From an uncultured Paracoccaceae bacterium (GTDB lineage: Bacteria > Pseudomonadota > Alphaproteobacteria > Rhodobacterales > Rhodobacteraceae): a DNA stretch of 64,000 bases. The first letter of the stretch is position 1, and every line of letters begins with the position of its first letter. The position numbers and the translations under genes are program-made. Below the pieces are notes generated by a model, which saw only the letters and a program-made list of their open reading frames with translations, searched no databases and was not told where the DNA came from. The stretch is taken from positions 1 to 64,000 of the forward strand of contig CAKZOU010000069.1 in assembly GCA_937138255.1 (NCBI GenBank), given 5' to 3'. Below are positions 44,601 to 54,088 of the stretch, one piece after another.

Positions 44601-44637
44601 GACCCCGCCGTCAGGCGGGGTCGGGGGCAGAGCCCCC
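44601..44637. repeat. GC-rich double hairpin, REP-like, at operon end
   Basis: GACCCCGCC (44601-44609) pairs with GGCGGGGTC (44614-44622), directly followed by GGGGGC (44623-44628) pairing with GCCCCC (44632-44637). Sequences of this style (CCGGGGG...GGGGGCAGAGCCCCC) recur between genes in Rhodobacteraceae. It may serve as the end signal of the polyamine operon; there is no T run. The right half encodes the C-terminus of the convergent DUF2478 gene. Confidence 0.6.
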
Positions 44638-45153
44638 TCTTCTGGCCGCCGCAAGGCACCAACGGGCAATCTCTTCCGCTCCGCCTGTGATGGCCTCGCC
44701 CAACCCTTCGGCGAAGGCATCAAACGCCGCAAGGCTGGCCGAAGGAACAATCACAAAAACCGGCATATCCACCGCCATCGCCGCGCCGATCGCAGGGCGA
44801 AACCCGCGGCCCTCGATCTCCTGCTTGCCAAACTTGTTGACAATCAGGATCTCGGGGCCTTCGACACCGCCCGCATGGATCGCCGCAATCACCTCGCCAA
44901 CCGCCTCTTCCAGCGCCCCGGGATCAAGCCGACAGCCCCTCGCGTGTGGCCCCAGATCCTGACTGATCCGCACCACCCGCTCGCCTGTCAGGATCTCGAG
45001 GTCCATATGACAACGCCCGTTCGAGGCCGCCCCGTGATTGTGCTGGATCGCCCCGGCCACGCGCACCCCCTGCGCCAGAAGCAATTGGGCGACCTGCACC
45101 AAAACCGTATCCGCCGTCACGCTTTCGCCGGGAACCATGTAGCCGAGCCGCAT
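44611..45153 (-). CDS. DUF2478 protein, probable molybdenum-related NTPase-like
   Basis: A 180-residue protein of the DUF2478 family, which is commonly found beside molybdenum-enzyme genes and resembles P-loop nucleotide-binding folds although a canonical Walker A is not apparent. Typical wording is MRLGYMVPGESVTADTVLVQVA and EILIVNKFGKQEIEGRGFR, where NKFGKQE is conserved. The start at 45153 is chosen by family start; upstream in-frame codons run into the fdhD region. It is divergent from fdhD by 64 bases. Its last residues (GGSAPDPA) are encoded by the REP-like element. Confidence 0.8.
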   Translation of the reverse strand: MRLGYMVPGESVTADTVLVQVAQLLLAQGVRVAGAIQHNHGAASNGRCHMDLEILTGERVVRISQDLGPHARGCRLDPGALEEAVGEVIAAIHAGGVEGPEILIVNKFGKQEIEGRGFRPAIGAAMAVDMPVFVIVPSASLAAFDAFAEGLGEAITGGAEEIARWCLAAARRGGSAPDPA

Positions 45154-45217
45154 CGTCCATCCTCTTGCAACTGCTGCCCCCCGCTTACAGTATGCCCGCA
45201 GACGAGGAAAGCGCCCC

Positions 45218-46087
45218 ATGCCGCCTGAGCTGCCCATCCTGCCCGATCCCAAAGCCCCCGGCCTGACCCGCAAGGTCAGGGGCATCGACCATAACGGCGC
45301 CGAGGCCGAAATATCGGTCGTCGAAGAGCGGCCTCTGACGATCTTTCTCAACTCTCAAGAAATCGTCACGGCCATGACCATCGGCGACTATCCCGACTAT
45401 CTGGCCGTCGGCTTCCTGCGCAACCAGCGGATGCTGCGCGACGACGATGTGATCACCGCCATCGACCATGCGCCCGAGATCGACACCATCGTCGTCCGCA
45501 CCGAGCGGCGCACCGCCTATGAGGAAAAGGTCCGCAAGAAAACCCGCACCTCGGGCTGTGCGGTGGGCACTGTCTTCGGCGACATGATGGAGGGGATCGA
45601 GGGGCTGACCCTGCCCGAAGCCGAGGTCAGAACCAGCTGGCTCTATCCCCTTGCTAAGACCATCAACACCTTGCCTTCGCTCTATCTCGAAGCGGGGGCG
45701 ATCCACGGCACGGTCCTCTGCCAAGGCGACAAGCCCTTGGTCTATATGGAAGATGTGGGCCGCCACAACGCGGTCGACAAGATCGCTGGCTTCATGTTCC
45801 GCCATCAGGTGAGCGGCGCTGACAAGATCCTCTACACCACCGGCCGCCTCACCTCGGAGATGGTCATCAAGACCGCGCAGATGGGGATACCCGTTCTGGT
45901 CTCCCGCTCGGGGTTCACCGCCTGGGGGGTCGAAATCGCCCGTCAGGTCGGCCTCACGCTCATCGGGCGGATGCGCGGCCAGCGGTTCGTCTGCCTGTCG
46001 GGCGAAGAGCGGCTGATCCGCGACGCGGCGCTCTCGGGCGAAGACGAAGACCGCAAGCACCGGCGCAAGGGGGCGGAGAATGACTAG
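45218..46087 (+). CDS. fdhD: Formate dehydrogenase accessory sulfurtransferase FdhD
   Basis: FdhD transfers sulfur onto the molybdenum cofactor of formate dehydrogenase and is needed for its activity. The 289-residue protein shows family segments VRKKTRTSGCAVG (a single cysteine, where E. coli has CxxC), VYMEDVGRHNAVDKIAG and TTGRLTSEMVIKTAQMGIPVLVSRSGFTAWGVE. Its gene overlaps mobA by 8 bases and leads a four-gene run to moeA. In Rhodobacter capsulatus the equivalent (fdsC) lies after fdsA; here it is upstream. Confidence 0.93.
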   Translation: MPPELPILPDPKAPGLTRKVRGIDHNGAEAEISVVEERPLTIFLNSQEIVTAMTIGDYPDYLAVGFLRNQRMLRDDDVITAIDHAPEIDTIVVRTERRTAYEEKVRKKTRTSGCAVGTVFGDMMEGIEGLTLPEAEVRTSWLYPLAKTINTLPSLYLEAGAIHGTVLCQGDKPLVYMEDVGRHNAVDKIAGFMFRHQVSGADKILYTTGRLTSEMVIKTAQMGIPVLVSRSGFTAWGVEIARQVGLTLIGRMRGQRFVCLSGEERLIRDAALSGEDEDRKHRRKGAEND

Positions 46088-46691
46088 TCCCCCCGCCATC
46101 ATCCTGGCCGGTGGCCGAGCAACCCGGATGGGTGGCGGCGACAAGGGCCTGCGCGAGGTCGGGGGCGAGCGCCTGATCGACCGCGTGATCGACCGCATCG
46201 CCCCCCAATGCGGGCCCATTGCCTTGAACGCCAATGGCGACCCTTCGCGCTTTGCTGATCTTGGCCTGCCGGTTCTGCCCGATAGCCTCCCCGATCACCC
46301 CGGCCCCCTTGCCGGAGTGCTCGCCGGAATGGACTGGGCCGCCAGCCTTGGCGCCGAGGCGGTCGTTTCGGTTGCCGCCGATACGCCCTTCTTCCCCCGT
46401 GATCTCGTGGAGCGCCTTCAGGCCGCCGCTGGCCCTTCTGGCCTTGCCCTCGCTGCCTCGCCCGACGCGACCGGCAAGCTCTGGCATCACCCGACTTTTG
46501 GCCTCTGGCCCGTGGCCCTGCGCGATAATCTGCGCGAGGCTCTCCAAGGTGGCCTGCGCAAGGTCGTTCTCTGGACCGACCGGCACGGGGCGGGCACGGC
46601 CAGCTTTCCCGCCTCGCCCTTCGATCCCTTCTTCAACATCAACACGCCCGACGATATCGCCGAGGCCGAGAAACTCGCGGAGCTCGCATGA
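46080..46691 (+). CDS. mobA: Molybdenum cofactor guanylyltransferase MobA
   Basis: MobA attaches GMP to molybdopterin, giving the guanine dinucleotide cofactor used by formate dehydrogenase. The 203-residue protein has the nucleotide-binding start IILAGGRATRMGGGDKGL (residues 7-24) and VAADTPFFP with the metal aspartate. The end FFNINTPDDIAEAE is typical. Start overlaps fdhD, and the stop overlaps mobB by 4 bases. Confidence 0.94.
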   Translation: MTSPPAIILAGGRATRMGGGDKGLREVGGERLIDRVIDRIAPQCGPIALNANGDPSRFADLGLPVLPDSLPDHPGPLAGVLAGMDWAASLGAEAVVSVAADTPFFPRDLVERLQAAAGPSGLALAASPDATGKLWHHPTFGLWPVALRDNLREALQGGLRKVVLWTDRHGAGTASFPASPFDPFFNINTPDDIAEAEKLAELA

Positions 46692-47182
46692 AGGTCTATG
46701 GCGTCACCGGCTGGAAGAACGCGGGCAAGACAACCCTCGTGGAACGCTTGGTCACCGAAATCTCCGGCCGAGGCCTCACGGTCTCAACCATCAAGCACGC
46801 CCACCATTCCGCCGATATCGACGAGCCGGGCCGCGACAGCTTCCGCCACCGCGAGGCGGGCGCGCGCGAGGTGATCCTCGCCACGCCCGAGCGCTGGGCC
46901 TTGATGCACGAGCTGCGCGGCGCGCCCGAACCGAAGGTCGAAGCCCTGATCGAGCGGCTCGCGCCTGTCGATCTGGTGCTGATCGAAGGTTTCAAACGCG
47001 CCCCGCACCCCAAGATCGAGGCGCACCGCGAGGAGATGGGCCATCCCCTGATGGCGAATGACAACCCGACCATCCGCGCCGTCGCCTCCGACATCTCGCA
47101 TATCCCGGTCGATGTGCCGGTTTTCGATCTCGACGATATCCGCGGCATCGCCGATTTCATCCTGAACGAGTCTGGCCTCTGA
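46688..47182 (+). CDS. mobB: Molybdopterin-guanine dinucleotide biosynthesis protein MobB
   Basis: A 164-residue GTP-binding adaptor that works with MobA. The P-loop is GWKNAGKTTLVERL (residues 6-19); STIKHAHH and LIEGFKRAPHPKIE are also characteristic. It shares its stop with the moeA start by one base, so the gene is tightly placed in the operon. Confidence 0.93.
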   Translation: MKVYGVTGWKNAGKTTLVERLVTEISGRGLTVSTIKHAHHSADIDEPGRDSFRHREAGAREVILATPERWALMHELRGAPEPKVEALIERLAPVDLVLIEGFKRAPHPKIEAHREEMGHPLMANDNPTIRAVASDISHIPVDVPVFDLDDIRGIADFILNESGL

Positions 47183-49317
47183 TGTTCGATCGGGTCGCCA
47201 TCCTCGACTGGTCAGCCTCGGGTGTGCCCAAGACGGGCAAGGATTCGATCTGGATCGGCGTTTCAGACGCGAGTGGCACCTCAAGCCATAACATCGCAAC
47301 GCGGGGCGAGGCTGAAGCCGCCGTCTTAGCGCTTGCGCAAGAGGCAATTCTCACGGGCGAGCGGCTCCTGATTGGGGCCGATCTGAACTTTGGCGCACCC
47401 GCTGGTCTTGCCAGCCACCTGACAGGCAAGGCCGAGGCCATGGCCCTTTGGGCTTGGCTGGCCGAGCGGATCGCCGACGACGCCCGCAACCGCAGCACCT
47501 ATCGCGCCATCGCCGCCGAGATGAACGCCACTCTGCCCGGCGGCGGGCCGTTCTGGGGCAATGGCGGCAAGGCCGATATCGACGGGCTGCCGCGCAAGAA
47601 GCCCGCCCTGCCCGACTGGCTGGCCGAACATCGCCGCTGCGACCAGCAAAGCAAGGCCGAGGGCCTATCCCCCAAGTCGCTTTGGCAACTCGCCGGGGCG
47701 GGCGCTGTGGGGGCGCAGAGCCTTTTGGGGATGCCGATGCTACACCGGCTGAAGGCCGCGCTTGGGGCAGATTGCGCCGTCTGGCCGTTTGACCCGATTG
47801 AGGGCAAGGCCATTGTCATCGCGGAAATCTATGCCGCCTTCATCGGACCTGACGTGAAGGCGCTTGAGGCGCGCGGCAAGATCCGCGACGCGGCGGAGGT
47901 CGAGCTACTGTCCGCCGCACTTTGGAACCTAGCGCAGTCGGATCGCCTCGCGCCCCTGTTCCAAATCGACGCCGCCACCGAAATCTTGCGCGAGGAAGGC
48001 TGGACCCTCGGCACAGGCCACGGCCCCACCTTGCGTGCCGCGATCCCAGCAAGCCAGCTCCCCCCGCGTTTGCGCGACGACTGTTTCGCCATGCCGCAGG
48101 GCGTGGCTTGGGTGCCTGTCGATGAAGCTCTGGAACGTTTGAAAGCCGCGCTTGCACCCGTGACAGGCACCGAGGCCCTCCAGACCAACATCGCCTGTGG
48201 CCGGATCCTCGCAGCCGATTGTATCGCCCGCCGCTCGAACCCGCCACGGCCCAATTCGGCGGTGGATGGCTACGGCTTTGCACATGCCGCGACCAAAGCG
48301 GGCGTCAACCGCCTGCCTCTCGTCGCTGGCCGCGCTGCAGCCGGGCAGCCCTTCGAGGGGACCGTCCCGCCCGGCCACGCCGTCCGCATCCTTACCGGCG
48401 CGATCCTGCCGGAGGGCGTCGATACCGTGGTCCTCGAGGAAGACTGCGCAACCGATAGCGCCAGTGTGACCTTCGACGGGCCGGCGAAGCCCCGCGCCAA
48501 TACCCGCAAGGCGGGCGAAGACGTGGTGGAAGGCGCGGTTGCGCTTAAGGCTGGTCAGCGCCTGCGCGCGCCCGATCTTGCGCTCCTCTCGGCGCTCGGG
48601 ATAGCCGAGGCGACGGTTCACCGCCCTTTGCGGGTGGGCGTCCTCTCGACCGGCGACGAAATCATCGCCACACCCGACAAACCCGCCCTGCCGCATCAGA
48701 TATACGACGCCAACCGGCCCATGCTGTTGGCTCTCGCGCGCCAGTGGGGCCACACGGCGGTGGACCTTGGCCACGCTCCCGACAGGCCCTCTGTGATCAC
48801 CCGCAAGCTCGACCGTGCGGCGCGCGAGGTGGATGTGGTCCTGACCTCGGGCGGCGCTTCGGCGGGCGACGAGGATCACGTCTCGCGCCTTTTGCGCGAG
48901 GAGGGCACGCTCTCAAGCTGGCGCATCGCCATGAAACCGGGCCGGCCCTTGGCGCTGGCGCTCTGGAAGGGCGTTCCCGTTATCGGCCTTCCCGGCAATC
49001 CGGTGGCCGCCTTGGTCTGTGCCCTGATCTTCGGCCGCCCCGCCCTTTCGAAACTCGCGGGCGGCGACTGGACTTCGCCGCAGGGATTTACCGTGCCTTC
49101 CGCTTTCACCAAATCCAAGAAGCCGGGCCGCCGCGAATACCTCCGGGCCCGTATCAATGCCGACGGCGCGGCCGAGGTCTTTGCCTCGGAAGGCTCGGGC
49201 CGGATCAGTGGGCTGTCATGGGCAGACGGGATCGTCGAGCTTCCCGATGGTGGGGCCGAGATCGCGCCGGGAACGCCCGTGCGCTATATCCCCTACGCCT
49301 CGTTCGGCCTGACCTAG
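47182..49317 (+). CDS. moeA: MoeA-type molybdopterin molybdotransferase with extra N-terminal domain
   Basis: Residues about 300-711 form a full MoeA that inserts molybdate into adenylated molybdopterin: NSAVDGYGFA near 360, ILTGAILPEGVDTVVLEED, STGDEI, DANRPMLLALARQWG, TSGGASAGDEDHV and MKPGRPLALALWKGVPVIGLPGNPVAA. Residues 1 to about 285 are an additional domain starting FDRVAILDWSASGVPKTGKDSIWIG. It resembles DUF429/RNase H-like proteins in style, but I do not recognise it with certainty. The total of 711 residues is about 300 longer than ordinary MoeA. Start overlaps the mobB stop; the end overlaps tusA by 4 bases tail to tail. Confidence 0.88.
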   Translation: MFDRVAILDWSASGVPKTGKDSIWIGVSDASGTSSHNIATRGEAEAAVLALAQEAILTGERLLIGADLNFGAPAGLASHLTGKAEAMALWAWLAERIADDARNRSTYRAIAAEMNATLPGGGPFWGNGGKADIDGLPRKKPALPDWLAEHRRCDQQSKAEGLSPKSLWQLAGAGAVGAQSLLGMPMLHRLKAALGADCAVWPFDPIEGKAIVIAEIYAAFIGPDVKALEARGKIRDAAEVELLSAALWNLAQSDRLAPLFQIDAATEILREEGWTLGTGHGPTLRAAIPASQLPPRLRDDCFAMPQGVAWVPVDEALERLKAALAPVTGTEALQTNIACGRILAADCIARRSNPPRPNSAVDGYGFAHAATKAGVNRLPLVAGRAAAGQPFEGTVPPGHAVRILTGAILPEGVDTVVLEEDCATDSASVTFDGPAKPRANTRKAGEDVVEGAVALKAGQRLRAPDLALLSALGIAEATVHRPLRVGVLSTGDEIIATPDKPALPHQIYDANRPMLLALARQWGHTAVDLGHAPDRPSVITRKLDRAAREVDVVLTSGGASAGDEDHVSRLLREEGTLSSWRIAMKPGRPLALALWKGVPVIGLPGNPVAALVCALIFGRPALSKLAGGDWTSPQGFTVPSAFTKSKKPGRREYLRARINADGAAEVFASEGSGRISGLSWADGIVELPDGGAEIAPGTPVRYIPYASFGLT

Positions 49318-49541
49318 CCCCGCCGGATCAGATAGGCGCGGGTGCCTTCGAGTTCGTTCATGCCCTGAAACTCGTGCCCCGCCTCAGTGCAGAAATGCGG
49401 CACGTCCACCACCGCCATCGGATCGCTGGCCAGAAGCCGCAGCACTTGCCCCGATTGCATTGCAGAAAGCCGTTTGCGCGCCTTCAGCACAGGCAGCGGG
49501 CACAATAGCCCGGTCGCGTCGATTTCCTGATCCCACGTCAT
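49314..49541 (-). CDS. TusA-like sulfur carrier protein
   Basis: A 75-residue protein of the TusA/SirA family. The active cysteine lies in the signature ATGLLCPLPVLKARKRL (C14), and the protein ends GTRAYLIRRG. TusA proteins carry persulfide sulfur between cysteine desulfurases and acceptors, including molybdenum cofactor routes. It is convergent with moeA and divergent (101 bases) from the formate dehydrogenase genes, so a role in sulfur delivery to FdhD is plausible but not shown. The ATG at 49541 is chosen by family length. Confidence 0.87.
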   Translation of the reverse strand: MTWDQEIDATGLLCPLPVLKARKRLSAMQSGQVLRLLASDPMAVVDVPHFCTEAGHEFQGMNELEGTRAYLIRRG

Positions 49542-49642
49542 GGCGCAAAAGTTATGCAAAGGGTCAGAAACTGTCCATTGTCGGGCGCGGCAATCTGTCA
49601 GAAAGTCGGCAGGTTCTATGCGCCGCGGATAAGGAAAACGAT

Positions 49643-51328
49643 ATGGCCCTCGACGATGGCAAAGGTGTTTGGAAATCGGGCCGTGGCAAGGGCCGCAAAA
49701 CGCCGAAGGGGCGCCAGCTTGACGATGCCGCTTGGGCCGAGGTCCGCGCACTTTTGGGCGACCGGCCGCGCAGCCGCGATCTGTTGATCGAGCATCTGCA
49801 CCTCATTCAAGACGCCCACGGCCACCTTTCTGCCCCGCATCTGCGGGCGCTGGCCGAAGAAATGCGCCTGTCGATGGCCGAGGTCTGGGAAGTGGCGACG
49901 TTTTACGCCCATTTCGATCCGGTCCGCGAAGGCGAAGTGAGCCCGCCCGACCTGACCATCCGCGTTTGCGAGTCGCTGTCTTGCGAACTGGCAGGTTCCG
50001 AGCAACTGATCGCCGCGCTCGAGGCCGGGATGGACCCGGCCAAGGTCCGCGTTCTGCGCGCGCCCTGTATGGGCCATTGCGATACCGCGCCGGTTCTCGA
50101 GATCGGGCATCATCACATCGACCATGCCACGCCGGAAAAGGTCGAAGCGGCCATCGCGGCCTCCGACACCCACGCCCATATCCCCGCCTATGAAACCCTT
50201 GCCGCCTATCGCGCGGCGGGCGGCTACGCCAAACTCCTCGATCTGCGTGTAAACGGCGATTGGGAGAAGGTTCAGGAAACCATCCTCGCCTCGGGCCTGC
50301 GCGGCCTTGGTGGCGCGGGTTTCCCCTCGGGCCGTAAGTGGGGCTTTGTCCGCGCGAATGCCGGCCCGCGCTATCTGGCCGTGAACGGCGACGAGGGCGA
50401 GCCGGGCACGTTCAAGGACCGCTTCTATCTCGAGCGCACGCCGCACCTGATGCTCGAGGGCATGCTAATCGCCGCCTGGGCGGTCGAGGCGGATAAGTGT
50501 TTTATCTACATGCGCGACGAATATCCCGCCGTGCTGCACATCCTGCGCGCCGAGATCGCCGCGCTTGAGGCGGCTGGCCTCGTCGGGCCGGGCTATATCG
50601 ACCTGCGCCGTGGCGCCGGGGCCTATATCTGCGGCGAAGAAAGCGCGATGATCGAGTCGATCGAAGGCAAGCGCGGAATCCCGCGCCAGCGCCCGCCCTA
50701 TGTGGCGCAGGTCGGCATTTTTGATCGTCCCACCCTCGTCCACAACGTCGAGACGCTGCACTGGGTCGCCCGCATCTGCCGCGAGGGGCCGGAGATTCTG
50801 AGTTCGACAGAGAAGAACGGCCGCAAGGGGCTGCGCAGCTATTCCGTCTCAGGCCGCGTGGCCAAGCCGGGGGTTTATCTCCTGCCCGCAGGCTCGACCA
50901 TCACCGATATCATCACCGCCGCAGGCGGCATGGCCGAGGGGCACGACTTCAAAGCCTACCAGCCGGGCGGCCCTTCCTCGGGCCTTCTCCCCGCCTCGAT
51001 GAGCGATATCCCCCTCGATTTCGACACGCTCCAGCCGCACGGAACCTTCATCGGCTCTGCCGCCGTTGTCGTCCTTGGCCACAAAGACAGCATCCGCGAT
51101 GCCGCGCTGAACATGCTGCGCTTCTTTGAAAGCGAGAGCTGCGGGCAATGCACACCCTGCCGGGTCGGCTGTGAGAAGGCTGTCAAGCTGATGCAGGCGC
51201 CGAAATGGGATGCCGACCTTTTGGGAGACCTGTGCACCGTGATGACCGACGCCTCGATCTGCGGCCTTGGCCAAGCGGCGCCGAACCCGATCAAACTTAC
51301 GCTGAAACATTTTCCGGACGAGGTCTGA
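49643..51328 (+). CDS. NAD-dependent formate dehydrogenase, fused FdsG-FdsB (NuoE-NuoF-like) subunit
   Basis: A 561-residue protein that takes electrons from FdsA to NAD. Residues about 25-180 form a NuoE/FdsG thioredoxin-like domain with a [2Fe-2S] set at C109, C114, C142 and C146. Residues about 200-561 are NuoF/FdsB: FMN site GLGGAGFPSGRKW (221-233), NAD-binding GAGAYICGEESA, and the [4Fe-4S] motif ESCGQCTPCRVGC. The two are separate genes (fdsG, fdsB) in Rhodobacter capsulatus. AAGGA precedes the ATG at 49643, which gives the family start. fdsA follows after 3 bases. Confidence 0.92.
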   Translation: MALDDGKGVWKSGRGKGRKTPKGRQLDDAAWAEVRALLGDRPRSRDLLIEHLHLIQDAHGHLSAPHLRALAEEMRLSMAEVWEVATFYAHFDPVREGEVSPPDLTIRVCESLSCELAGSEQLIAALEAGMDPAKVRVLRAPCMGHCDTAPVLEIGHHHIDHATPEKVEAAIAASDTHAHIPAYETLAAYRAAGGYAKLLDLRVNGDWEKVQETILASGLRGLGGAGFPSGRKWGFVRANAGPRYLAVNGDEGEPGTFKDRFYLERTPHLMLEGMLIAAWAVEADKCFIYMRDEYPAVLHILRAEIAALEAAGLVGPGYIDLRRGAGAYICGEESAMIESIEGKRGIPRQRPPYVAQVGIFDRPTLVHNVETLHWVARICREGPEILSSTEKNGRKGLRSYSVSGRVAKPGVYLLPAGSTITDIITAAGGMAEGHDFKAYQPGGPSSGLLPASMSDIPLDFDTLQPHGTFIGSAAVVVLGHKDSIRDAALNMLRFFESESCGQCTPCRVGCEKAVKLMQAPKWDADLLGDLCTVMTDASICGLGQAAPNPIKLTLKHFPDEV

Positions 51329-51331
51329 ACC

Positions 51332-54088
51332 ATGACCGATCAGATCAAATTCACCCTCGACGGGCGCGAAGTTTCGGCCAATGCGGACGAGACCATCTGG
51401 GACGTGGCCAAGCGCCACGGCACCGATATCCCGCACCTTTGCCACAAGGATCAGGCCGGCTATCGCGCCGACGGCAATTGCCGCGCCTGCGTGGTCGAGA
51501 TCGAGGGCGAGCGCGTGCTGGCCGCCTCCTGCTGCCGCAATGCGACGAGCGGGATGGTCGTCAAAACCGAGAGCGAGCGGGCCACGAAATCCCGCGCGCT
51601 GGTGATGGAGCTTCTCTTGGCCGATCAGCCTGAACAGGCCGCCGCGCATGACAAATCAAGCCACCTGTGGGACATGGCCGCCGCCAATGGTGTGAGCGAG
51701 AGCCGCTTTCCCACAGTCGAGGCCGAGCGCATCCCGCTCCTTGACGACAGCCACGTCGCAATGCGCGTCAACCTTGATGCCTGCATCCAGTGCGGCCTTT
51801 GCGTGCGGGCCTGCCGCGAGGTTCAGGTCAACGACGTGATCGGCATGGCGGGGCGTGGGCACGATGCCTATCCGACCTTCGATTTTGCCGATCCGATGGG
51901 GCAATCGACCTGTGTCGCCTGCGGCGAATGCGTGCAGGCCTGCCCGACCGGCGCGCTGATGCCCGCGACCGTTCTCGATAGCGCCGAAGTCGGCGACCGC
52001 GCCGATATCGACAGCGAGACGCTGAGCATTTGCCCCTTCTGCGGCGTGGGCTGTCAGGTGAGCCTCAAGGTCAAGGATGGCAAGGTCAAATACGTCGAGG
52101 GCGTCAATGGTCCTGCCAATGAGGGGCGTCTTTGCGTCAAGGGCCGCTTTGGCTTTGACTATATCCATCACCCCCACCGCCTGACCAAACCGCTGATCCG
52201 CAAGGAGGGCGCGCCCAAGGGGCTCAATGTCGATCCGGCCAACCCCTTCACCCATTTCCGCGAAGCGACTTGGGACGAGGCGCTAGATTTCGCCGCCGGC
52301 GGCATGGCGCGGCTCGCGCAGGCGCATGGCGGGCGGGCGATTGCCGGCTTTGGCTCGGCCAAATGCTCCAATGAAGAGGCTTATCTCTTCCAGAAACTGA
52401 TCCGGCAGGGTTTCGGCCATAACAACGTCGATCACTGCACGCGCCTGTGCCACGCCTCATCCGTAGCGGCACTGATGGAGAACGTGGGCTCCGCCGCCGT
52501 TACGGCGACCTTCAACCAGATCGAAAACGCCGATGTTGCTATCGTCATTGGCGCCAACCCGATCGAGAACCATCCCGTCGCCGCGACCTATTTCAAACAA
52601 TTCACCAAACGCGGCGGAAAACTTATCGTCATGGACCCGCGCGGGGTCGGCCTGCGCCGTTTCGCGACGCATATGCTGCAATTCCGCCCCGGTGCGGATG
52701 TCTCGATGCTGAATGCGATCATGCACGTCATCGTCGAAGAGGGCCTCTACGATCAGGCCTATATCGAGAAGTTCACCGAAAACTGGGAGGCCGAGAAGGC
52801 CCACCTCGCCGCCTTTGCCCCCGAGAAGATGGAGGCGATCTGCGGCATCCCCGCCGAGACCCTCCGCGCCGTGGCCCGCGACTTCGCCACCGCCAAGGCG
52901 GGGATGATCTTCTGGGGCATGGGCGTGAGCCAGCACATCCACGGAACCGACAATTCCCGCTGCCTCATCGCGCTGGCGCTGATGACCGGTAATGTCGGCA
53001 AACCCGGCGCAGGCCTTCACCCGCTGCGCGGCCAGAACAACGTTCAGGGCGCATCCGACGCGGGCCTCATCCCGATGTTCCTGCCCGATTATCAGACAGT
53101 CACCTCCGACGACATTCGCGGCAAGTTCTCCTCAGTTTGGGGCTCGGGCGACTGGTCGGCCGAAAAGGGCCTGACCGTGACCGAAATCCTCGACGCGGTT
53201 CACCATGGCGATATCAAGGGGATGTATATCCTCGGCGAAAACCCCGCCATGTCGGACCCTGACGTAACCCACGCCCGCGAGGCGCTGGCGAGCCTTGAGC
53301 ACCTTGTCGTGCAGGATATTTTCCTCACGGAAACCGCGAACTATGCCGACGTGATCCTGCCCGCCGCCGCTTTCTATGAGAAATCGGGCACCGTGACCAA
53401 CACCAACCGGCAGGTCCAGATGGGCCGCCCCGCTGTCACGCCTCCGGGCGAGGCGCGCGAGGATTGGGCGATCACGGTTGAACTGGCCAACCGGCTCGAC
53501 CTTGGTTGGCGCTATGCCAGCCCTGCGGACGTGTTTGCCGAAATGAAGCTCACCATGAAGTCGCTCGACAACATCACTTGGGAGCGTCTTGAGGCGGAAA
53601 ATGCGGTGACTTATCCCAGCCTCTCGCCCGGCGATCCGGGGCAGGCGATCGTCTTCGCCGATGGCTTCCCCCGTGCCGAGGGCCGCGCGCGGTTTGCGCC
53701 CGCTTCGGTCATCTCGCCCGACGAAACGCCGGACGCCGATTATCCGATGGTCGTCACCACCGGCCGCCAGCTTGAGCACTGGCACACGGGCTCGATGACC
53801 CGCCGCTCGAACGTGCTTGACGCGATCGAGCCCGAGGCCAATTGCTCGCTCCATCCTGATACGCTGCGCGAGATGGGCGTCGAACCCGGCGGCATGGTCC
53901 GGCTCGAGACGCGGCGCGGCACCATTACCATGCTGGCGCGGGCCGACAGGGCGGTGGCGCGAGATATGGTTTTCGTGCCCTTCGCCTATGTCGAGGCGGC
54001 GGCCAACGTTCTGACCAACCCTGCCCTTGATCCCTATGGCAAGATCCCCGAGTTCAAGTTTGCCGCCGTGAGGGTAACGGCGGCCTAG
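51332..54088 (+). CDS. fdsA: Formate dehydrogenase alpha subunit FdsA (molybdenum catalytic subunit)
   Basis: A 918-residue catalytic subunit that oxidises formate to CO2 at a bis-MGD molybdenum. The N-terminal [2Fe-2S] domain has C37, C50, C53 and C67/C68; two [4Fe-4S] sets are at 151-161 and 194-204; the NarG-like cluster is at C234, C237, C241 and C268. The molybdenum ligand is most likely C373 with H374 (RLCHASS), encoded by TGC, so this is not a selenoprotein. The gene follows the FdsG-B fusion; no small delta subunit (fdsD) is found after it. Confidence 0.94.
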   Translation: MTDQIKFTLDGREVSANADETIWDVAKRHGTDIPHLCHKDQAGYRADGNCRACVVEIEGERVLAASCCRNATSGMVVKTESERATKSRALVMELLLADQPEQAAAHDKSSHLWDMAAANGVSESRFPTVEAERIPLLDDSHVAMRVNLDACIQCGLCVRACREVQVNDVIGMAGRGHDAYPTFDFADPMGQSTCVACGECVQACPTGALMPATVLDSAEVGDRADIDSETLSICPFCGVGCQVSLKVKDGKVKYVEGVNGPANEGRLCVKGRFGFDYIHHPHRLTKPLIRKEGAPKGLNVDPANPFTHFREATWDEALDFAAGGMARLAQAHGGRAIAGFGSAKCSNEEAYLFQKLIRQGFGHNNVDHCTRLCHASSVAALMENVGSAAVTATFNQIENADVAIVIGANPIENHPVAATYFKQFTKRGGKLIVMDPRGVGLRRFATHMLQFRPGADVSMLNAIMHVIVEEGLYDQAYIEKFTENWEAEKAHLAAFAPEKMEAICGIPAETLRAVARDFATAKAGMIFWGMGVSQHIHGTDNSRCLIALALMTGNVGKPGAGLHPLRGQNNVQGASDAGLIPMFLPDYQTVTSDDIRGKFSSVWGSGDWSAEKGLTVTEILDAVHHGDIKGMYILGENPAMSDPDVTHAREALASLEHLVVQDIFLTETANYADVILPAAAFYEKSGTVTNTNRQVQMGRPAVTPPGEAREDWAITVELANRLDLGWRYASPADVFAEMKLTMKSLDNITWERLEAENAVTYPSLSPGDPGQAIVFADGFPRAEGRARFAPASVISPDETPDADYPMVVTTGRQLEHWHTGSMTRRSNVLDAIEPEANCSLHPDTLREMGVEPGGMVRLETRRGTITMLARADRAVARDMVFVPFAYVEAAANVLTNPALDPYGKIPEFKFAAVRVTAA

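Follow-up and report, generated by a model that had tools for sequence, protein, structure and literature searches.

The window analysed here is a stretch of 64,000 nucleotides from an uncultured Paracoccaceae bacterium (assembly GCA_937138255.1, contig CAKZOU010000069.1), and the subject of this report is a long moeA gene whose product carries an additional domain ahead of the molybdenum insertase. The gene is a single open frame on the forward strand, which runs from the ATG at 47182 to the stop codon ending at 49317 and encodes 711 residues; its start overlaps the TGA of mobB (TGATG at 47180-47184). Three Pfam domains, MoeA_N (residues 311-473, 132.7 bits), MoCF_biosynth (486-623, 99.7 bits) and MoeA_C (643-704, 48.5 bits), are all over cut-off and in order, and thus make up a complete MoeA (48112-49317 with the stop codon, forward strand) behind the front domain. 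This front domain and its relatives are called X below, and a divergent branch linked to rarA is called X'. The joining segment PPRLRDDCFAMPQG (residues 294-307, 48061-48102, forward strand) is the N-terminus of a MoeA subfamily, also present in MoeA without X; the corresponding N-terminal sequence of relatives, PPxLRxDCFAxPxGVxW(xPVxEAL), begins at residue 294 in the window. Since MoeA-type sequence starts there and the confidence of a full-length model is low at residues 291-314, X is placed at residues 1 to about 290 (47182-48051, forward strand). The extra N-terminal domain reported in the original prediction, which was made from the sequence alone, is therefore real, and the end then given for it, 48040 (residue 286), is close to ours.

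The fusion gene lies in a molybdenum-cofactor and formate dehydrogenase block, as had been proposed, with all of the following genes on the forward strand. Directly upstream is mobB (46688-47182; TIGR00176, 171.5 bits, cut-off 76.2), preceded by mobA (46080-46691; TIGR02665, 195.8 bits, cut-off 151.85) and by an fdhD-like gene (45218-46087) that scores below both curated cut-offs (TIGR00129, 122.9 bits against 140.9; NF001943, 140.7 against 269). Downstream is the alpha subunit of a formate dehydrogenase (51332-54088; TIGR01591, 745.5 bits, cut-off 666.25), the presumed client of the cluster. Since the window genome encodes a second MoeA, in a frame of 392 codons, the X-MoeA fusion is probably reserved for the formate dehydrogenase next to it.

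Pfam offers no match for residues 1-286 at E<=10 nor for residues 1-300 at E<=1, and a known Pfam enzyme was accordingly rejected as the identity of X. In the Protein Data Bank a search with the sequence gave one match (E 0.74) and a profile search two (E 0.068 and 0.89), all of them regarded as chance; PADLOC and PHROGs gave no match at E<=0.1, so that a defence or phage origin is without support. The profile search of the front domain that had been suggested did find one family without a function, PRK14495 (NF011066), described as a fusion of a putative MobB and an unknown domain. Positions 167-450 of this profile match residues 2-287 of X (E 1.4e-55 to 9.6e-57), the unknown-domain half is present in 23/23 X domains of our alignment A1, and the separate mobB product of the window matches the MobB half. 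In PRK14495, however, X is fused to MobB, whereas in the window it is fused to MoeA and MobB is encoded by its own gene, and the window protein reaches 189 bits against a whole-protein cut-off of 596. The entry states no function, and no MobB-X fusion was noticed among the loci looked at. The bifunctional MobB/MoeA family PRK14491 (NF011060) matches window residues 297-707 with its MoeA half (415 bits), but its fused partner is MobB rather than X and the score stays below the cut-off of 532. Likewise, the window protein scores 239.4 bits with the gephyrin-like molybdotransferase Glp (NF045515), under the cut-off of 475. Public records label X-MoeA proteins 'gephyrin-like molybdotransferase Glp' (L254 5995-8163, L257 5995-8157) and leave X unmentioned. 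No mention of X was met in the open literature, subscription papers not being covered, and the available portions of four papers on DUF429 or cobalamin (PMC3597751, PMC5566576, PMC4429107, PMC3985635) are silent on it. X is thus an uncharacterised domain, whose predicted fold is a known one and which NCBIfam already holds as the unknown half of PRK14495.

The original prediction took X for an independent globular protein, and structure prediction agrees. AlphaFold modelled residues 1-300 from the 23 X sequences of alignment A1 with a mean predicted local distance difference test (pLDDT) of 93.4 and a predicted template modelling score (pTM) of 0.91; in a model of the full-length fusion from 11 sequences (pLDDT 68, pTM 0.46) the X part is well predicted and the MoeA part poorly. 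In the predicted structure DSSP assigns strands at residues 4-9, 23-29 and 32-38, a helix at 41-57, a strand at 62-66 and, beyond a large insert at about residues 76-160, a helix at 176-197, a strand in two segments (198-201/211-215) and helices at 218-230 and 235-252. The resulting order, b1-b2-b3-a-b4-a-b5-a, is that of the RNase H-like superfamily. The best VIA-align match of the model is a phage RuvC, over 128 residues at 3.6 A, and nearly all of the 50 matches listed are RuvC, Tex/Spt6, phage TerL nuclease, MOC1, IS621, Cas9, MutS, YqgF or actin-like ATPases, which we take to share the RNase H-like fold (8qwd and 8v9k were left unclassified). A library of viral structures gave a best E of 0.12. 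No single score is decisive, but the list of matches points one way, and the predicted fold of X is very probably RNase H-like.

Conservation was read from an alignment of 85 rows, the window and 84 relatives, of which 73 are X and 12 are RarA-linked X' (L109, a second copy of the L081 genome, was excluded). The DWSASG motif noticed earlier near the start of the domain occupies residues 9-14 (47206-47223, forward strand, as for all residues below) at the end of strand 1; its D9 is conserved in 84/85 rows and W10 in all of them. D67 (47380-47382), just after strand 4, R151 (47632-47634) and E215 (47824-47826), at the end of the strand 211-215, are each invariant in the 85 rows, and E272 of an EEGW motif near the end of X (47995-47997) is conserved in 84, with one gap. 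In the X branch a further candidate metal ligand is D236, at the start of the last helix (47887-47889), present in 73/73 X rows and in 6/12 rows of X', which carries a DDHxxDA motif instead. Between strands 1 and 2, the KTGKDSIW motif (residues 17-24, 47230-47253) contributes D21, found in 67/73 X rows and 0/12 X' rows. The two branches are homologous (hhalign probability 99.9). The acids are thus retained across a very divergent set of sequences. Judged from the alignment, D9, D67, E215 and E272 would supply the carboxylates expected of an RNase H-like site on strand 1, on strand 4 and towards the C-terminus. Together with D236, they may bind one or two divalent metal ions.

The predicted fold and the conserved acid set are also what would be expected if X were a true ribonuclease H or R-loop nuclease, with its fusions to cofactor enzymes incidental and fixed by drift or operon coupling. 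This is the main rival to a role in cofactor assembly and we hold it to be rather unlikely. DUF429 (PF04250) has been placed by one survey in the RNase H-like superfamily, in clade D with RuvC, YqgF and Tex (PMC3985635). By eye, its order of motifs, GxDG/DxPIG/R/ExHPE, resembles the DWSA/DFPFG/R/AEIYP of X, and the DDHxxDA of X' resembles its DDxxDA. Mycobacterial proteins provide precedents for the nuclease reading. In a report on Mycobacterium smegmatis MSMEG_5849 (RelZ), RNase HII activity is ascribed to the DUF429 domain (PMC4429107), and another account describes RelZ as active on RNA-DNA hybrids and R-loops, with the separated domains inactive (PMC7591505). In the mycobacterial RNase HI-CobC proteins Rv2228c and MSMEG_4305 an RNase H-fold domain likewise stands ahead of a cobalamin enzyme; its authors conclude that genetic drift is the most probable cause of the fixation of this protein and that its domains are dissociated in vivo (PMC7466739). 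There, however, the domain is a classical RNase HI and the partner is CobC, not CobH or MoeA. Moreover, X is no plain replacement for a cellular RNase H, a possibility that was rejected because RNase HI was found in 29/30 genomes (all but G004, a draft assembly) and RNase HII in 30/30, with or without X.

Purifying selection acts on X, as judged from pairwise ratios of non-synonymous to synonymous substitution rates (dN/dS) of 0.12-0.20 among five close copies (window, L068, L069, L070, L077), against 0.09-0.18 for the MoeA part. This speaks against an incidental nuclease, though a working nuclease would be under selection too. The low ratios, together with relatives in 56 of the 289 genomes of a class sample, indicate that X is a real part of the gene and not a chance extension. 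X is present in 18/41 genomes, that of the window included, and the window's genus is judged to be Marivivens from named copies of X that are 82-87% identical to the window copy. Relatives occur in 30 of the 299 genomes of a phylum sample and in 88 distinct genomes overall, and a profile search found X in 37/299 genomes, 3 of them outside the class. One X lies on a contig labelled as an Ilumatobacter (Actinomycetota) metagenome-assembled genome (L079), outside the mainly alphaproteobacterial range, which may reflect an error of binning or a transfer.

Gene context was examined at 85 unevenly sampled loci, as genes within 2.5 kilobases (kb) of X, with distances measured between the ends of BLAST matches. 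Stretches of up to 14 kb were examined for 60 of the 83 X genomes outside the window's genus, and 25 X loci from named contigs were added; the 23 omitted genomes have mostly weak matches, and their omission thins the divergent X' branch. A molybdenum cluster surrounds X at 18/85 loci, and at all 18 X begins 3-30 nucleotides (nt) after mobB and is directly followed by moeA, to which it is fused in frame in 15/18. X also exists as a gene of its own immediately downstream of mobB, or of mobA, a situation that the original prediction had proposed to look for; in Ruegeria sp. TM1040, for instance, it is the gene TM1040_RS04220 (WP_011537357.1), located between mobB and a moeA-type gene. At one of the fusion loci (L094) moeA lies in two frames. 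In that genome (G013) the matches to moeA (L094 5594-6798) and to the RNase HII gene (C3:3118787-3119316) are each split between two frames, pointing to base-level errors in the assembly. Three further loci (L144-L146) have X after mobA without mobB or moeA; the MobA profile matches in the window and in the one of these three that was tested. A gene of the azlC type adjoins 8 of the 18 molybdenum loci (L093, L094, L098, L100, L107, L111, L143, L148), each of the three mobA-X loci and, in L096, an X that stands by itself. Next to azlC, X can thus persist with mobA, or on its own, when mobB and moeA are missing.

The second recurrent setting is cobalamin synthesis, with 18/85 loci (17 distinct) in other Alphaproteobacteria. 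The order cbiX-X-cobH is found at 12 distinct loci, with X fused to CobH in 9/12; in five such fusions tested, CobH/CbiC was identified as PF02570 at E 3.1e-65 or lower. At three loci X follows cobU by 15-21 nt, and CobU was over its equivalog cut-off in 3/3. One X follows cobQ by 18 nt, and at one locus cobD lies on the opposite strand, 224 nt from X. One copy each of CbiX, CobL/CbiE, CobI, CbiG-CobJ, CobQ and CobD was checked by profile, and the other neighbours were assigned by BLAST to these. The cobalamin operon of the window genome itself (L275) is without X. A coupling of X to riboswitch-based RNA processing found no support, a single cobalamin riboswitch (L095) having been detected among the 8 sources searched, a set that omitted L093, L098 and L113; in the window, no Rfam family reached its gathering score. 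At L018, L022, L035 and L081 long open frames (369-530 codons) precede X; they are GC-rich and of low complexity, and by eye were dismissed as chance frames. The original prediction inferred from the fusion a role in cofactor handling, and its link to molybdenum is genuine. It was nevertheless too narrow, because X is about as frequent at cobalamin loci (17 distinct) as at molybdenum loci (18) among the 85, which means that its role is not specific to molybdenum. A known, unrelated enzyme commonly fused outside the molybdenum pathway had been named as what would speak against that link: fusions of this kind are indeed frequent, with CobH at 9 loci, but X does not correspond to any known enzyme.

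Two pathways, and separate genes beside mobA and cobU as well, are poorly explained by drift, which counts against the nuclease with incidental fusions. A further alternative is a non-catalytic carrier or scaffold that holds molybdopterin or corrin intermediates and passes them from MobB to MoeA and from CbiX to CobH. In its favour, X stands between two pathway genes at 30 distinct mobB-X-moeA or cbiX-X-cobH loci, at 24 of which it is joined to the second gene, and a physical relay also fits the single open frame formed by mobB and moeA in 5 of the 15 clusters without full X. A scaffold has no need, however, of acids and an R151 that are kept across branches with quite different partners, and at the cobU-X and mobA-X loci no scored pathway gene follows X. 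We therefore regard a scaffold as improbable.

The remaining loci are of other kinds. A Gfo/Idh oxidoreductase and/or a MATE gene is found at 13/85. X' adjoins the gene for the RarA/MgsA AAA+ ATPase at 11/85 (L104, L105, L130, L134-L138, L140-L142), a neighbourhood that favours the nuclease alternative. A CCA tRNA nucleotidyltransferase gene is found at 4/85 (L126, L129, L131, L133), all in one X branch; the copies of L126 and L133, the two scanned, match the model below cut-off. At 18/85 no scored context was found, L132 among them with fdhD only. These 18 loci, and 28 more with recurrent but unrelated neighbours, are what one would expect if X were a passenger with an unrelated housekeeping function in well-expressed operons, and the existence of clusters without X agrees with this. 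The in-frame fusions to MoeA (15/18) and CobH (9/12), and an upstream gene on the same strand, make a passenger very unlikely.

In a tree of 84 rows, X' is separated from X with full support, and the molybdenum loci, the mobA-only loci and two others of the window's family form one branch with moderate support (91/65). The cobalamin label needs seven changes on this tree, five of them forced, and a repeated recruitment of X to cobalamin loci is likely. The window's family is represented by 39 genomes; full-length X is present in 20 of them, exactly one each, and one more (G468) has a weak partial match only. The 20 copies lie in the molybdenum cluster (13), at cobH (2), beside mobA only (3) or elsewhere (2), a distribution suggestive of mutual exclusion between the molybdenum-cluster and cobH positions, with two cobH cases only.

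The limits of X, its confidently predicted structure, its conserved acids, the gene order and the parallel placement in cobalamin operons are direct observations. On these grounds X is probably an accessory of cofactor assembly at the molybdenum and B12 loci. MobA and CobU both transfer guanosine monophosphate from guanosine triphosphate to a cofactor precursor, and because these guanylyl-transfer enzymes adjoin unfused X, a nucleotide-linked substrate is proposed. In characterised members of the superfamily, acidic sites of this type bind Mg or Mn, and phosphodiesters are hydrolysed there. In the window, X, translated directly after MobB and tethered to the second MoeA of the formate dehydrogenase cluster, would act together with MobA, MobB and MoeA on molybdopterin. 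D9, D67, E215, D236 and E272 would coordinate one or two divalent metals, and X would hydrolyse a phosphate bond in some pathway molecule that carries a nucleotide, thereby clearing or recycling a nucleotide-linked intermediate or by-product. Taken as a whole, the reading of X as an accessory domain of metallocofactor assembly with an acidic site that hydrolyses such an intermediate is our preferred one, if tentative and somewhat short of probable. Its chemical part, a phosphohydrolase of a small nucleotide-linked molecule, is doubtful. A bolder version is unlikely, namely that X is a single-copy RNase H-fold enzyme for a step shared by the assembly of molybdenum cofactor and of cobalamin, most likely with the nucleotide-linked cofactor that MobA and CobU produce as its substrate, and that it is parked in one of the two operons of each genome, fused to MoeA or CobH.

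Several observations weigh against this preferred reading. The structural evidence is modest: models without a clear match often reach a Z of 7-8 with VIA-align, where X reaches 7.0 and 0/1000 chains attain Z >=8, and the best Foldseek match, HIV integrase, has E 0.067. Despite the likeness of motifs, membership of X in DUF429 is not established by sequence tests: one of 23 X sequences matched at E 0.018 (15.2 bits, cut-off 23), 0/23 were over cut-off, 0/11 X' matched, and hhalign of our alignments against 14 DUF429 sequences gave probabilities of 4.7 (A1), 17.4 (A3) and 0.3 (A4), with shallow profiles. The chemistry of CobH involves no nucleotide, and the changes counted for the cobalamin label could include losses alongside gains. 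No molybdenum, cobalamin or mobA context was found at 46/85 loci, and since the omitted matches are mostly weak this probably underestimates how often X lacks a cofactor context. Finally, fdhD-mobA-mobB-moeA occurs without full X at 13 related loci (L269 included), and only 4 of their genomes are known to hold X elsewhere; two further loci have mobA-mobB-moeA without full X. X is thus optional or dispensable in such clusters. G005, G011 and G018 have X elsewhere and a molybdenum cluster without it. In G015, which also has full X elsewhere, the front domain of the moeA product is reduced to about 130 residues (L269 5764-6151, reverse strand). BLAST matches to X-MoeA fusions are confined to roughly the last 24 of these, and the domain is perhaps a relic of X.

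Other genes of the window cluster were noted in passing. A DUF2478 protein (PF10649, 156 bits; 44614-45351, reverse strand) is divergent from fdhD; its longest open frame overlaps the fdhD start, and translation probably begins further inside this frame. A DUF2478 gene also lies beside the plasmid copies of the cluster in Salipiger and Alloyangia. Between moeA and the formate dehydrogenase genes is a TusA-type sulfurtransferase (49317-49751, reverse strand), also present in several relatives. FdsG and FdsB form one open frame (49460-51328), in which a NuoE-type part, 2Fe-2S thioredoxin-like, precedes one of the NuoF type; Salipiger and Alloyangia have a gene of about this length under the name 'subunit E'.

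The molybdenum-cofactor and cobalamin pathways are usually regarded as known step by step. If enzymes of both carry a conserved domain whose acidic site is intact, a step may have been overlooked, or there may be a repair reaction or a control that the two pathways share. Should X be the single-copy enzyme of a common step, it would to our knowledge be the first RNase H-like domain of the nuclease-type branch with a dedicated small-molecule cofactor substrate. If X is a plain nuclease instead, it would join RNase HI-CobC as a second example of a nuclease domain attached to cofactor enzymes, and would caution against inferring function from fusions.

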